Source: Nitrosomonas sp. (GTDB lineage: Bacteria > Pseudomonadota > Gammaproteobacteria > Burkholderiales > Nitrosomonadaceae). Taken from it: a stretch of 64,000 nt of DNA. Below, piece by piece: positions 48,177-53,024 of the stretch. Location of the stretch: the NCBI GenBank assembly GCA_024281675.1, contig JAMXAG010000015.1, positions 1-64,000 of the forward strand. The letters run 5' to 3'. Position 1 is the first letter of the stretch. Every line of letters starts with the position of its first letter. Both the position numbers and the translations under genes were made by a program. The notes under the pieces were generated by a model. That model had not been told where the DNA came from and did no database searches. It worked only from the letters and a program-made list of their open reading frames with translations.

Positions 48177-49289
48177 TTAGATCCACTTCTTTTTTCTAAA
48201 GAAAATGAACATGCCGATGCCAAGAAAAATAAAAATCACCCAAATGGCAGGATAACCCCAACGCCATTTTAATTCCGGCATGTATTCAAAGTTCATGCCA
48301 TACACGCCGGCAACAAAGGTCAATGGTATGAAAATCGACGTAAAAATGGTCAAAATTTTGATGGTTTCATTCATTTTATTACTGATATTGGATAGGTAGA
48401 TGTCATGCATATCAGAAACCCTGTCGCGAAAAGAATCCAATGAATCCATAACACGCAGCACATGATCGTACACATCACCAAAGTAACGAAAGGTTTTTTC
48501 GTGAATCAAATCAGAACCTGAGCGTTGCACTGCAGCCAACAATTCCCGTACAGGCGCGATATTACGACGCATGAAAATCAGGTTTCGCTTAATTTGTTGA
48601 ATGGTTTGCAAGAAATTTGTGTCCGAATTAAAAAAAACATTGTTTTCCAACGGCCCCAACATTTCATCCAGATACTCTTCGATGGCAAAATATTTATCGA
48701 CGATGGTATCAATAATGGCATAAGCTAAATAATCGCTACCGTACTGCCGGATACGGCTATTCCGGTTTTTTAAATGCCCGTATATTGGTGTAAATGTATC
48801 GTCTGTCTTTTCTTTGAAAGTAATGACAAAATTAGCTAATAAAAGCACGCTAATCTGCTCATATTGCAAATCAAATTCCTGATCTGAGCCTATTTCGATA
48901 TCTTTGATAACAAGATATAAGAAATTGTCGTATTCTTCTATTTTTGGGCGTTGATGCGTGCTTAAAATGTCTTCGAGTACGAGCGGATGAATACTAAGAA
49001 ATTGTCCGATGCTTTCGATCGTATCTATATCGCTTAAACCATCTACATTGAGCCAAGTAATCAATTGGTCATTCTTGAATTGCTCTAATTCTGTAATCGA
49101 GCAAATTTCACGCTGTATCAGAGTATCTTTGGAATATTGCGTAACAGATATTTTACAACCTAACTCATGCTCCTTGCCGACATGAACCAGTGCGCCAGGG
49201 GGCAATCCGGCTTTTTCTGCGGCACTCTTGAAAATTCTTTTTCGAGCCGACTGATCGGCTGGGGGTGTATTGAAAGGGGTGTCATTCAT
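48177..49289 (-). CDS. corA: Magnesium/cobalt transporter CorA
   Basis: 370 aa. Long N-terminal cytoplasmic domain, then two C-terminal transmembrane helices with the channel signature YGMNFEYMPELKW near 325-337 and a basic tail (FFRKKKWI). The pentameric channel imports Mg2+ and also Co2+/Ni2+. Length and C-terminal arrangement are standard. Monocistronic between the kinase and lipoxygenase operons. Confidence 0.95.
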   Translation of the reverse strand: MNDTPFNTPPADQSARKRIFKSAAEKAGLPPGALVHVGKEHELGCKISVTQYSKDTLIQREICSITELEQFKNDQLITWLNVDGLSDIDTIESIGQFLSIHPLVLEDILSTHQRPKIEEYDNFLYLVIKDIEIGSDQEFDLQYEQISVLLLANFVITFKEKTDDTFTPIYGHLKNRNSRIRQYGSDYLAYAIIDTIVDKYFAIEEYLDEMLGPLENNVFFNSDTNFLQTIQQIKRNLIFMRRNIAPVRELLAAVQRSGSDLIHEKTFRYFGDVYDHVLRVMDSLDSFRDRVSDMHDIYLSNISNKMNETIKILTIFTSIFIPLTFVAGVYGMNFEYMPELKWRWGYPAIWVIFIFLGIGMFIFFRKKKWI

Positions 49290-49450
49290 AATAACTAACT
49301 TAGGTTAACGAGTAGTTTATTTTAAACCCAGAAATTTCAGTTAATCGTACGAGTGGGTATTGTGCATGATGAGCGATGAAGTGAAAAATCAAAATCAATT
49401 CCCTGAATCAGCGAAATTTGCTTTCAGCACAGATCAGTGCGCTTATCCCC

Positions 49451-49469
49451 CGCCAGCTTTTAGCTGGCG
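49451..49469 (-). terminator. Hairpin downstream of the lipoxygenase gene
   Basis: A perfect 8-bp stem (CGCCAGCT / AGCTGGCG) with a 3-nt loop, 17 bases past the lipoxygenase stop. No T-run follows on the minus strand, so a terminator role is likely by position only. Confidence 0.5.
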
Positions 49470-49486
49470 AAGTATCTACACTAACA

Positions 49487-51151
49487 TCAAACAGTTACAC
49501 CATTTGGGATGAGTCTTGGATTCATCCGGTCATAAGTCACAGAACGATTGCTATTTCTTTGGTCAATTTGTCCTTCTATTTCTTTTAGCTGGCTTCTGAA
49601 TCGTTCGATCACATCGCGCGCTGCCGGATCAAATTGCCCTAATGGGTATTGACCAATGCGATTGACGGTAAAATTTGTCTGAAAGTAGGTCCAGGTTTGT
49701 GAGTTGGCCGCGCGAAATGCTGGTTGAAGCTTGAATAGTCCAGCGGCATCGATTTCAGTATTTTTTCCCATTGGTGGTGGTGCATAAGCGGAATGTGGCA
49801 TAATGGGAACAAATCCCGGATATTTGTATTGGTTGAAGTGAATGCAGGAATGAAAAGCCGTGCATAGAAAAATGACATGACCAAACGTTTCAGCTAATTC
49901 CTGTTTAGATTCGAATCTGGCAGGAAATCCAGGTATTCTGCCACGATCCTGCGCACTGACATCGTTTGTCCATGCTTGGATTTCATAATCTTCGATAACA
50001 TCTGCATCAGAGCGATAATAGACATCGATATATTCTTTTACAAAACTTTGAATTGCATTCCATAACAACATACCATCATCGCGAAAGGGGTAGAAAAGTG
50101 CAGGATTATCGACTTCCCTTTTTGCAATATCGTTAGGAAAAGCCGATGCTTTGAAATTGAAGCTTGTCATAGCATTAGCCATGCATTGAGTCGTTGCATC
50201 ATAGTCTCCAGCAAATAATTCACCGTACCGGCCAGGTTGACCTTTTTGATTCCGTAGGAAAGTGTGCTGGTGGTTTACATTGAGTGTATGTTGCAGATGT
50301 GGATTTAAGAGCACAGAAAGCGGATGGGATTTATAAAGCTGACGGCGTGACGCCATAATGATGGCCTCCATGACATAATGAATACGGGTGGCATGGGTAT
50401 ACAGGATGTGGTGATTACCATCGGCGACTTGGGCGAACATTTTGGCTGCCAACCAAAGATTGCCATCCTTTGGTGTATAGACTGGATTATCAGGCCTGGC
50501 ATCTTGGTATAACTGTATGGCAAGCGGTTGCAACAAACCATCCGATTGCAAAAATAACACCACGATCGGGGTCGTGACATATTGTTTGCGGCCACCGTCG
50601 ATAGATCCGGGGTTTTGCTGCAATATCTCCAAGGATGCATAATCCAGGACATACACGCGCTTTTGTTCAAGGGCAGCCGCATAATCGACCTCGATAATTT
50701 GCTCTGCAAAAATGCGTCGTATTTCAGATTCCGGTAATGCTGCCGGCAGGGGATTTTGACGGGTAACCGCGCGCAATACCACAGGATTGACGCCAATGAC
50801 ACGTTGCAATCCGAATGTCAGATCCTGTTGGAAGGTATCGACCAGCCTTGGATTTGGCGGGCTGAACGGATAAAAAACATAGTCTTGGTAATTTTCTAAG
50901 GGTTTGCCTAGCAAATAGCGCGAAAAAGTAACCAATAGATTCGGTAAGCTGGGAATCAATTGCAACAGATTTATTCCTCCGCGCAACCAATAGCCAATGC
51001 CAGGTATTTCCCGACAGGGTAATTTGCGTACGACGGCAATCGTATGGGCATATTCATAGGCGTATTGATATTGAGTCTGCCTATGCAGAAGATAGCTCTT
51101 CCGGTTTTCTACTGCGTGACTATTTTCTTCATGTTGTGGTAGCTTGTTCAT
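49487..51151 (-). CDS. Bacterial lipoxygenase (non-haem iron fatty acid dioxygenase)
   Basis: 554 aa without a PLAT domain, as in short bacterial lipoxygenases. The iron ligands align with known enzymes: His248 and His253 (HILYTHATRIHYVME), His434 and His438 (FHSCIHFNQYKYPGF) and the C-terminal carboxylate of Val554 (IPNGVTV at the very end). Family blocks LWLAAKMFAQVADGNHH, RRQLYKSHPLSVLLNPH and RFRSQLKEIEGQI are also clear. It should insert O2 into polyunsaturated fatty acids to give hydroperoxides. GAGGGG lies 11-12 bases before the ATG. No signal peptide. It lies 76 bp after a cyclooxygenase-like gene, probably one transcript. Confidence 0.92.
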   Translation of the reverse strand: MNKLPQHEENSHAVENRKSYLLHRQTQYQYAYEYAHTIAVVRKLPCREIPGIGYWLRGGINLLQLIPSLPNLLVTFSRYLLGKPLENYQDYVFYPFSPPNPRLVDTFQQDLTFGLQRVIGVNPVVLRAVTRQNPLPAALPESEIRRIFAEQIIEVDYAAALEQKRVYVLDYASLEILQQNPGSIDGGRKQYVTTPIVVLFLQSDGLLQPLAIQLYQDARPDNPVYTPKDGNLWLAAKMFAQVADGNHHILYTHATRIHYVMEAIIMASRRQLYKSHPLSVLLNPHLQHTLNVNHQHTFLRNQKGQPGRYGELFAGDYDATTQCMANAMTSFNFKASAFPNDIAKREVDNPALFYPFRDDGMLLWNAIQSFVKEYIDVYYRSDADVIEDYEIQAWTNDVSAQDRGRIPGFPARFESKQELAETFGHVIFLCTAFHSCIHFNQYKYPGFVPIMPHSAYAPPPMGKNTEIDAAGLFKLQPAFRAANSQTWTYFQTNFTVNRIGQYPLGQFDPAARDVIERFRSQLKEIEGQIDQRNSNRSVTYDRMNPRLIPNGVTV

Positions 51152-51227
51152 GATGCGGTACCCCTCTACAAAAAATAAAATCCGGGATTATTTCCTCGTT
51201 AACTTACCTATTTCAGCCGCGTGATCC

Positions 51228-52835
51228 TTAGTTAACCGATGGCCGCGTAGATGTTTTAAAGCTGGCAACGACCTTATCGCTATCCTTTACATTACGTTGC
51301 ACAATATCCGCAAGTGAGTTCGTTTCCTCAATAACCAACTGCCCAATTTTCGAAAATGTCGCTTCGTTGTGTACGTAAGTCGAGACCAATGGGTTGGTCA
51401 GGGCATGGGTAAACGCATCGTAACCGACCATGCGCACCATCAGGCGGCCAAGGCTAAAACCTTCATCATGATCCTCGGCGAATATGCCAACTTGCCATTC
51501 GAGGTCGTCGATACGGTCATGATAGAGTTCCTTGAGTTCTCGCTGCAGTTCAGCATCGCTTGTCAATTCCTCAAAACTTCTCAAGCGCGGCATGCTGAAT
51601 GCTTCGCGATAGTCATTAAATGAGCGCAGCTTGGCTTGCCGCCCCATCTCAATGGTGCGCGCCATGACACTTTGATTTTCAGTGCCAAAGGGCAGAGGAT
51701 CGAAAAAGAAACCGTGGGTGTTATACAAGCCAATGCGCCCGGCCTTTTGCGTCGAAGCAGCCGTTATCAATGACCCAATCCCATAGTGCATTACCAGGGG
51801 TATATTGTTGCGAAATTCATCGAGCGTGTATGAATTATTTCCGACTAGGTAATGCTCCGGTACCATTGAGTGCCATCGGTAGAGGAGGTTAAATTCCAAG
51901 GAAATCCAATTGGTGCGGTACCAACGCTGCTTTTCCGCCATGCCAGGTGTGGGATCGAGAGTGAAATTAAACTGTGTAAAGCGCGAAACGTAATCCTTTA
52001 AGACGACTTGAATCAGCAATACAATCATGACGTTTCTGGCGGTCTGAAACAAGCGCTCATCATCCCATTGTGAATGGGTTTCTTTCAGTAAATCACAAAT
52101 TCGATTGTGCTCGCGCAACATAATGGTATTCATGATGGTGTAGCCAATCGATGAATTGCCGTGCTCCAAACCAGTGGCAAACATGCGTTTCAACCGCTCT
52201 TCAGGAACGTTGTTAAAAACGAAATCCAAGGCGAAGCGGGGGTGTAACTTCTCAAACTCTTCACTCGCGAACACCCAGTTGCCCTGGGTCGTTTCTTCAA
52301 CGTTAAAAAGGAAAGGAGGATACATTTCTCCATCAATGATTTGATACTTTAGCTTCCCATCTTTTTTTAATCGTAAACGATAGGTCACTTCTTCACGCAA
52401 GCCATAGATTTGGCAAAGATCAATTTCGTGATTTGACGTATTTTTCCGGCGGTCGCGAAAATCCGTCCTCAGAAAACTATCTGTAAACCATTGAGCAAAG
52501 AAAGAAAACAGTATGCTGGTGTCAACTGAAGGTATTTCCTTATGCTCTTTTCTTTTCCACAGATTAACGACTCGCTCCAGATTCGGGAGATTTTGGTCAC
52601 CCTCCGCTTCTGGCAAATGCCGCCCGGTGAATGTTCTATCCGTCAATGATTGCCATGTGGTATACGGTGAAGCCATTGAAAATGGCCTGGGACGAGGGTT
52701 TGTGGCATAGGCTTGCCAATTGACAAAAATATCACTAATCAATCGCCGCAACCATGGAATGCGTGAGGCAATCCTGCCAATCCATGGGAATCTATTGACA
52801 AGCCGAAAAACAATCTGGAAAAAAAAGTCATCCAT
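51228..52835 (-). CDS. Cyclooxygenase-like haem dioxygenase (prostaglandin G/H synthase homologue)
   Basis: 535 aa from ATG 52835, preceded by AGGGAGA; the longer frame's first 22 codons are MITE sequence. The body resembles animal prostaglandin synthase: DLCQIYG, LKKDGKLKYQIIDGEMYPP, MLREHNRICDLLKETH and ISLEFNLLYRWHSMVPEHY. In the last, Tyr319 and His322 match the catalytic Tyr385 and haem-binding His388 of ovine COX-1. In FFAQWFTDSF, Gln115 matches Gln203, but Asp119 replaces the distal His207. The position of Ser530 appears to be Ala. EGF-like and signal sequences are absent. First gene of an apparent operon with the lipoxygenase. Confidence 0.9.
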   Translation of the reverse strand: MDDFFFQIVFRLVNRFPWIGRIASRIPWLRRLISDIFVNWQAYATNPRPRPFSMASPYTTWQSLTDRTFTGRHLPEAEGDQNLPNLERVVNLWKRKEHKEIPSVDTSILFSFFAQWFTDSFLRTDFRDRRKNTSNHEIDLCQIYGLREEVTYRLRLKKDGKLKYQIIDGEMYPPFLFNVEETTQGNWVFASEEFEKLHPRFALDFVFNNVPEERLKRMFATGLEHGNSSIGYTIMNTIMLREHNRICDLLKETHSQWDDERLFQTARNVMIVLLIQVVLKDYVSRFTQFNFTLDPTPGMAEKQRWYRTNWISLEFNLLYRWHSMVPEHYLVGNNSYTLDEFRNNIPLVMHYGIGSLITAASTQKAGRIGLYNTHGFFFDPLPFGTENQSVMARTIEMGRQAKLRSFNDYREAFSMPRLRSFEELTSDAELQRELKELYHDRIDDLEWQVGIFAEDHDEGFSLGRLMVRMVGYDAFTHALTNPLVSTYVHNEATFSKIGQLVIEETNSLADIVQRNVKDSDKVVASFKTSTRPSVN

Positions 52836-52880
52836 GGTTTCATTCTCCCTTCGTTTATGTGGTGAGTCTTTATATTTTTC

Positions 52881-53024
52881 TAACAGGCTGCTGAAAAACG
52901 TATTCGAGGCAACCGATGCTAGGTAAGAACAGGAGAAAAAGCGCATTTTATGTACGATATGAGCATTTTGAGCCTGTTTTTAACACCGCAACGGTAACGC
53001 AGATAATTTTTCAGCGATCTGTTA
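52881..53024 (+). repeat. MITE-like repeat, copy 2
   Basis: 144 bp with 18-bp ends matching at 15 positions: TAACAGGCTGCTGAAAAA on the left and TAACAGATCGCTGAAAAA read inwards from the right. The interior is an inverted copy of 28669-28806. It begins 45 bp upstream of the cyclooxygenase start codon, so that operon's promoter must lie inside or beyond it. Confidence 0.82.

Follow-up and report, generated by a model that had tools for sequence, protein, structure and literature searches.

Two adjacent genes in a 64,000-nt stretch of Nitrosomonas sp. DNA (assembly GCA_024281675.1, contig JAMXAG010000015.1, positions 1–64,000; the whole stretch is called the window here, and its genome G000) encode a heme dioxygenase with a cyclooxygenase (COX) fold, DOX, and a lipoxygenase, LOX, and this DOX-LOX pair is a conserved unit rather than a product of chance. 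The pair belongs to a larger co-inherited peroxidase island, which includes a DyP-type peroxidase, a catalase-related protein, a GMC oxidoreductase, a large heme peroxidase, and a cytochrome. This gene set of ammonia oxidizers suggests an undescribed bacterial pathway of oxidized lipids. We tentatively propose, giving the idea a little less than an even chance, that the two genes together form one unit of an oxylipin pathway in which DOX would make a lipid hydroperoxide for use by LOX and the enzymes of the island.

Conservation of the DOX-LOX gene pair

The pair occupies the following positions in the window:

51228..52835, minus strand: DOX, heme dioxygenase of the COX fold, 535 aa, first gene of the pair
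51152..51227, minus strand: intergenic spacer between DOX and LOX, 76 bp
49487..51151, minus strand: LOX, lipoxygenase, 554 aa, second gene of the pair

A preliminary description of this DNA had placed two oxygenase families side by side, co-oriented and 76 bp apart, which the open reading frames (ORFs) at 51228–52835 and 49487–51151, both on the minus strand, bear out. It had also proposed looking for the same adjacency in other Nitrosomonadaceae. Among 125 genomes of this family, to which the window belongs, the lipoxygenase domain PF00305 is present in 17, close homologues of DOX (∼75–100% identity) are present in the same 17, and in all 17 the genes are adjacent on one strand in a single order, DOX then LOX. 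The spacer measures 35–184 bp in 16 of these loci and 3 bp in the remaining one, where the longest ORF start was used and is overlong. No internal stop codon interrupts DOX or LOX across the 17 pair genomes, and the median ratio of nonsynonymous to synonymous substitution (dN/dS) is ∼0.08 for DOX and ∼0.10 for LOX (106 of 136 genome pairs each), at a high dS (median ∼1.1). Both genes are under purifying selection. The distance matrices of the two proteins are correlated (r = 0.93 over 136 pairs, uncorrected for relatedness). Four genomes without LOX (G079, G094, G037, and G052) contain more distant DOX homologues (39–51% identity), as do eight of the 17 pair genomes.

A scan of named genomes returned 224 DOX relatives, the best 80 of which were kept and correspond to 79 loci. 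LOX adjoins DOX in 14 of these loci, all from Nitrosomonadaceae (Nitrosomonas, Nitrosospira, and Nitrosovibrio); the 14 overlap the 17 family genomes and are not an independent sample. DOX was found in 16 plasmid records, LOX in eight, and the pair in none; one Acaryochloris plasmid has both genes, ∼82 kb apart. A search of phage records for LOX was negative.

The sequences flanking the two genes contain three further elements:

52845..52851, minus strand: Shine-Dalgarno-like AAGGGAG 5′ of the DOX start, identified by eye
51161..51167, minus strand: Shine-Dalgarno-like AGAGGGG 5′ of the LOX start, identified by eye
49448..49472, minus strand: stem-loop ∼15–40 nt 3′ of the LOX stop, without a U-tract, from fold computation

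The ribosome-binding sites described earlier for both genes are recognizable in the first two elements. An in-frame ATG at 52946 offers an alternative start for DOX, giving a protein of 572 aa. The hairpin that had been noted after the second gene is borne out by fold computation (−26 kcal/mol, z −4.2), but it lacks a U-tract and is not among the terminators listed by the scan; it could be a terminator or a processing hairpin, and a similar, if less perfect, sequence lies 3′ of LOX in locus L055. Scans for sigma-70 promoters and terminators gave results no better than chance. On the same strand, a gene for a CorA-type transporter (48177–49289) follows LOX, as it does by eye in L055 and, also by eye, in none of eight other pair loci compared. 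In one Nitrosomonas, a protein that has a caspase domain (Peptidase_C14) and Sel1 repeats is encoded directly 3′ of LOX (L058:9959-11794). The segment directly upstream of DOX (52882–53022) may be a small inverted-repeat element resembling a miniature inverted-repeat transposable element, with AACAGGCTGCTGAAAAA and an imperfect inverted copy (∼14/17, by eye).

Identity of the two oxygenases

In Pfam, DOX matches the peroxidase domain only (PF03098, An_peroxidase; E = 3.8e-44), and no NCBIfam model matches either DOX or LOX at E 0.001. Mammalian COX-2 and COX-1 are matched by DOX among PDB sequences (∼230 bits for COX-2), and COX-2 is likewise the best PDB match (template modeling score, TM, of 0.84 over 540 columns) of an AlphaFold (AF2) model built on an alignment of 36 sequences, with a mean predicted local distance difference test score (pLDDT) of 91. 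By alignment, the catalytic Tyr and proximal His credited to this protein in the preliminary description are Y319 (COX Y385) and H322 (COX H388), and D119 and A474 occupy the positions of COX H207 and S530, respectively. We extended this comparison to 94 bacterial rows, including that of the window, aligned with COX-2. The columns of Tyr385, Tyr348, and Trp387 are conserved in all 94 rows and that of His388 in 93. The column of His207, the distal His of the COX peroxidase site, contains Asp in 93 rows, with one gap, and Asp in 16 of 16 rows of the pair clade; that of Ser530 contains Ala in 92 of the 94. The Arg120 column is unconserved, with Gln in 16 of 16 pair-clade rows, in a region where the alignment is loose. 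Because the distal His is replaced by Asp and Ser530 by Ala, and Arg120 is lost, prostaglandin-type chemistry is not expected. The term cyclooxygenase-like, used earlier, is apt for the fold, Tyr385, and His388 and probably misleading as to activity, and these active-site residues led us to reject a cyclooxygenase or prostaglandin reading of DOX.

The protein resembles instead the linoleate 10S-dioxygenase (10S-DOX) of Nostoc. As described in a 2026 review (PMC13049297), this enzyme of 542 aa has three N-terminal helices, FtdsF replacing FthqF, Ala487 at the position of Ser530, and a GxDAF motif, and it acts on oleic and linoleic acid. DOX carries the FTDSF helix (F117–F121) and the GxDAFxxA terminal motif (G471–A478) as published for B2J5P4, the motifs being compared with the description in the paper and not by alignment to the Nostoc sequence. 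At 535 aa, and with model helices at residues 2–15, 17–25, and 27–42, it also agrees with the ∼540 aa and three N-terminal helices, similar to COX helices B–D, of this type, and it is 41–42% identical to the cyanobacterial loci kept among the best 80 of the 224 relatives. DOX is best described, on these sequence features, as a heme dioxygenase of the 10S-DOX type, regiospecificity aside.

LOX matches PF00305 (E = 2.2e-58) and no PLAT domain in Pfam, and its closest PDB chain is 5MED (248 bits). Alignment with 5MED recovers the full set of iron ligands reported earlier, consisting of H253, H258, H434, H438, and the C-terminal carboxylate of V554. The LOX of the window ends in Val; some relatives end in Ile, the usual C-terminal residue of lipoxygenases. 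The position of oxygenation by lipoxygenases is set by an Ala/Gly (Coffa) site; the region around N291–H296 of LOX aligns with gaps, and the Coffa residue is not placeable. An AlphaFold model of LOX from 14 close orthologues was too poor (pLDDT 42) and was set aside.

The peroxidase island and the partners of related enzymes

A 401-aa catalase-related protein is encoded near LOX in Nitrosospira. Its orthologues (89–100% identity, the next match being at 41%) are found in 18 of the 125 family genomes, namely all 17 pair genomes and one of the 108 others, G080. The gene lies within ∼1.4 kb of LOX in all eight pair genomes of genus g3, 11–17 kb from LOX in six other pair genomes, and on a separate contig in three. 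The positions in the window's genome are:

G000:C1:404732-417113 (L218): peroxidase island, seven genes, on a contig apart from that of the pair
G000:C1:408061-409269: gene for the catalase-related protein, on a contig other than that of the pair

The island was mapped in 13 genomes, G080 and 12 of the 17 with the pair. Block A, which encodes proteins of 150 aa and 434 aa, the DyP-type peroxidase, and the catalase-related protein, is present in all 13 mapped genomes. Block B consists of a cytochrome lipoprotein and a GMC oxidoreductase, each in 10 of the 10 genomes mapped from genus g1, and the large heme peroxidase, which is whole in seven of these; it falls outside the mapped stretch in all three g3 genomes mapped. 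Both blocks and the pair share one stretch in G010, G012, G014, and G021. Aligned to G010, the island of G080 (L223, G080:C58:100000-119500) lacks ∼6.1 kb and has ∼0.6 kb in its place; in G010 the corresponding segment carries both genes of the pair as well as three unvetted short ORFs of 161, 169, and 146 aa. In G080, the large heme peroxidase beside the gap is broken into three ORFs. Since LOX and DOX are missing within one ∼6.1-kb stretch and the neighboring peroxidase is broken, this single exception looks like a joint loss of the two genes; an assembly error could also account for the gap.

A profile of the catalase-related family, built with relatives from other loci, matched 3E4W (5.1e-10), 1U5U, an allene oxide synthase-lipoxygenase (AOS-LOX; 9.5e-07), and catalase (4.0e-06). 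Pfam recognizes catalase in four of seven catalase-related members, at E up to 0.1, and the first island orthologue scanned gave no such match; the copy at L065:11518-12720 has no match in Pfam or NCBIfam. Ten of the 17 pair genomes have genes of the RoxA-like family NF040606 that score above the cut-off, but these are on other contigs or distant from the pair; the weak matches that fall short of it are the block B cytochrome. Elsewhere in the window's genome, an animal heme peroxidase domain lies inside a 1632-aa open frame (G000:C3:9317-11287, L072).

In other loci, DOX frequently stands without a recognizable partner, and any partner seen is a P450 or a catalase-related protein. By Pfam, DOX is fused to a P450 in four of the 79 loci (L100:5971-8838, L106:1-2544, L135:5983-8889, and L149:5959-9120), and a P450 gene lies beside it in 12, five checked with Pfam (L148, L150, L153, L155, and L163) and seven assigned by similarity to those. 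A gene similar to a desaturase-like gene of L155 lies within ∼2.7 kb in 10 of these 12. Streptomyces and an actinomycete metagenome-assembled genome contribute 11 of the loci with an adjacent P450 (L150–L156, L159, and L163–L165), with a desaturase-like gene nearby in 10, and these look like an oxylipin cluster. On a Methylobacterium currus plasmid (L185, NZ_CP089299.1), a catalase family gene comes after DOX, with insertion sequence elements on both sides, an order that recalls the Nostoc arrangement; in Roseovarius, a gene similar to this catalase family gene lies 56 bp ahead of DOX. A FastTree phylogeny of the 94 rows unites the 18 pair rows in a single group (support 99), which the DOX-P450 fusions L100 and L106 adjoin (support 100 for the 20 rows; the L100 branch is long). 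The closest PDB match of the P450 fused in L100 is CYP74A (E = 2.5e-19), and the bacterial fusions are possible counterparts of the fungal dioxygenase-P450 fusions. Where visible, the partners of DOX belong, judging by family assignment, to families acting on fatty-acid hydroperoxides, and the LOX of the pair occupies the same place.

A related LOX has a partner of its own. In family f34, of the same class, a LOX 40–44% identical to that of the window is present in five of 42 genomes (L172–L176), and in all five its immediate same-strand neighbor encodes a RoxA-like di-heme protein (cytochrome c peroxidase). RoxA-like proteins include the 10S-DOX and diol synthase of P. aeruginosa (PMC4496055). 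The pairing of LOX with a RoxA-like protein in f34 parallels that of DOX with LOX, and a possible rule is that this branch of bacterial lipoxygenases works with a heme oxygenase or peroxidase.

Proposed pathway, alternatives, and known systems

In the first step of the proposed pathway, the tyrosyl radical of DOX would take a hydrogen next to an acyl double bond, probably of a Δ9 chain, and O2 would be added to give a hydroperoxide, as expected from its family. LOX would then work with the product of DOX, either as a second oxygenase activated by the hydroperoxide or as a hydroperoxide isomerase, standing where some other members of the DOX family have a P450 or a catalase-related protein beside them; lipoxygenase iron becomes active once oxidized by a hydroperoxide. 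We propose this transfer because the partners of DOX elsewhere belong to hydroperoxide-acting families, with LOX in their place. The island enzymes (catalase-related protein, DyP, GMC oxidoreductase, large heme peroxidase, and cytochrome) would process or remove peroxides in a third step. The preliminary description had foreseen a doubly oxygenated product or sequential action on one lipid. The co-oriented, conserved unit of two fatty-acid-oxygenase families, probably serving one pathway, agrees with that idea; the co-inheritance of the island had been missed.

Canonical lipoxygenase chemistry requires a 1,4-diene; LOX must therefore either find substrates of the linoleate type or catalyze an unusual reaction. 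The window's genome encodes four PF00487 proteins, two of them DesA-family desaturases; only these two could be named, and no dedicated Δ12 desaturase was recognized among the four. A relative of the DesA-type desaturases, whose position of desaturation is presumed, is found in 122 of the 125 family genomes irrespective of the pair, and a search of these genomes for an association between DesA and the pair gave none. The presumed scarcity of polyunsaturated fatty acids in ammonia oxidizers, raised as a puzzle in the preliminary description, is a smaller difficulty than was claimed, given the prevalence of DesA and the action of 10S-DOX on oleic acid (PMC13049297). Since 10S-DOX accepts oleate, polyunsaturated lipids may be unneeded for the DOX step, which by analogy may require only a monounsaturated chain. 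A bolder version, which we hold to be unlikely, has DOX oxidizing the cell's own monounsaturated (Δ9) chains and LOX acting as a hydroperoxide isomerase independent of polyunsaturated fatty acids, with the dedicated island peroxidases behind it, as a pathway of membrane-lipid peroxides peculiar to ammonia oxidizers. If true, action on hydroperoxides of monounsaturates would give the lipoxygenase family a new role.

Several observations weigh against the proposed hydroperoxide pathway. The product of a 10S-DOX should lack a 1,4-diene, and sequential action would need a less usual LOX reaction. The presumed distal His of the catalase-related protein, a position inferred from the motif, is replaced by Asn in all 18 island orthologues (GNTKTHG; L065 and L192–L209), with relatives reading AH[PS]K (L185, L210, and L211) or VHPK (L137), and because of this Asn the island protein may not be a hydroperoxide lyase. 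Island and pair lie on different contigs in the window's own genome. No partner tag was assigned to 57 of the 94 DOX rows, and DOX is present in none of the five f34 genomes with LOX. The remaining 65 kept loci, one from Nitrosomonas and 64 from other families, show no LOX next to DOX (15 have less than 2 kb on one side), and of 50 genomes searched behind them, that of Nitrosomonas sp. Nm166 and 49 from other families, only three have any LOX. Expressed from a plasmid, PA2077, the 10S-DOX of P. aeruginosa, is lethal without PA2078 and toxic also with functional PA2078 (PMC4496055), and since toxicity persists with functional PA2078, this case is no evidence that a partner makes the enzyme safe.

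Characterized lipoxygenases oxygenate linoleate, which would suit a scheme in which the two enzymes act separately on polyunsaturated fatty acids from algae, protozoa, or detritus, producing a mixture of hydroperoxides for signaling, food, or use as a weapon. The usual requirement of LOX for a 1,4-diene, the lack of a recognized Δ12 desaturase among the PF00487 proteins of the window's genome, and the oxygenation of linoleate by the characterized 10S-DOX (PMC13049297) favor such parallel oxygenation, but it leaves unexplained the strict pairing, the joint absence in G080, and the co-inheritance with the catalase-related gene, and the DOX partners visible elsewhere are P450 or catalase-related proteins; we find it doubtful, yet still a serious competitor. 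Chance adjacency of unrelated genes is scarcely credible: the pair is unseen outside the family (64 kept loci, 49 genomes searched), but the genes are adjacent in 17 of 17 loci amid differing surroundings, both are under purifying selection, and their occurrence in the same 17 of 125 genomes contradicts it.

The composition of the island raises two further readings. The lipid hydroperoxides of the pair might mainly serve as oxidant for the island peroxidases (DyP and the large heme peroxidase) or be toxic to neighbors, and several peroxidase-type proteins, together with a GMC oxidoreductase able perhaps to make H2O2, would be in keeping with peroxide handling or chemical defense. No immunity or export genes were recognized, no search having been aimed at them, and block B, its large peroxidase included, is absent from the vicinity of the pair in all three g3 genomes mapped, which makes this distinctly unlikely in our estimation. 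More improbable still is a substrate other than a fatty acid, namely another unsaturated polymer or an isoprenoid attacked by a RoxA-, DyP-, and GMC-like oxidative set: the related f34 LOX has a RoxA-like neighbor, and DyP and GMC enzymes serve in polymer oxidation, but both enzymes of the pair fall in fatty-acid oxygenase families, and a desaturase-like gene lies within ∼2.7 kb in 10 of the 12 DOX loci with an adjacent P450.

A 2015 review of bacterial PGHS orthologues by Gupta and Selinsky is said to include one from Nitrosomonas europaea, and Brash and co-workers reportedly described the Nostoc punctiforme linoleate 10S-dioxygenase with its catalase-related hydroperoxide lyase in 2014. A LOX in N. 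europaea has been reported with citation of Vance 2004 (PMC11941309), and because it is already in print, LOX alone in Nitrosomonas is not new. In the open-access literature, searched through titles and the beginnings of abstracts and with most subscription journals outside it, we found neither the pair nor its conservation nor the island described, and no oxylipin work on ammonia-oxidizing chemolithotrophs; the first 300,000 of the 522,781 characters of PMC11719350 mention neither Nitrosomonas nor catalase-related proteins. What is new is an oxylipin gene set in a combination unmatched in the literature searched, built from families that are individually known. The pair unites the two great oxylipin-forming enzyme classes in a single conserved bacterial unit, in chemolithotrophs, and with two small proteins and a clear set of genetic partners, the function of bacterial lipoxygenases becomes directly testable.

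Among the closest known systems is that of N. punctiforme, in which a linoleate 10S-dioxygenase is combined with a catalase-related hydroperoxide lyase (PMC13049297). The COX-fold dioxygenase, FTDSF, Ala at Ser530, and GxDAF are shared, and a catalase-related gene is co-inherited here too, whereas LOX is the direct neighbor in Nitrosomonadaceae and the island protein carries Asn where the distal His is presumed to lie. The AOS-LOX fusions of corals (Plexaura and Capnella; PMC5617202) likewise couple a LOX with a catalase-related protein; here, the genes are separate and a third oxygenase, DOX, is added. Fungal fusions of a COX-like dioxygenase with a P450 (LDS, AOS, and EAS; PMC13049297) join the dioxygenase to a hydroperoxide-processing enzyme, a role for which the present pair has a LOX instead of a P450, in a separate gene. 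The oleate diol synthase operon PA2077-PA2078 of P. aeruginosa (PMC4496055) also sets a 10S-DOX acting on oleate beside its partner, but both of its proteins are di-heme RoxA-like enzymes unrelated to COX and LOX. With mammalian COX-1 and COX-2, the window's DOX has in common the fold (TM 0.84), Tyr385, Tyr348, and His388, and it differs from them in the replacement of His207, Arg120, and Ser530 and in matching only the peroxidase domain in Pfam.

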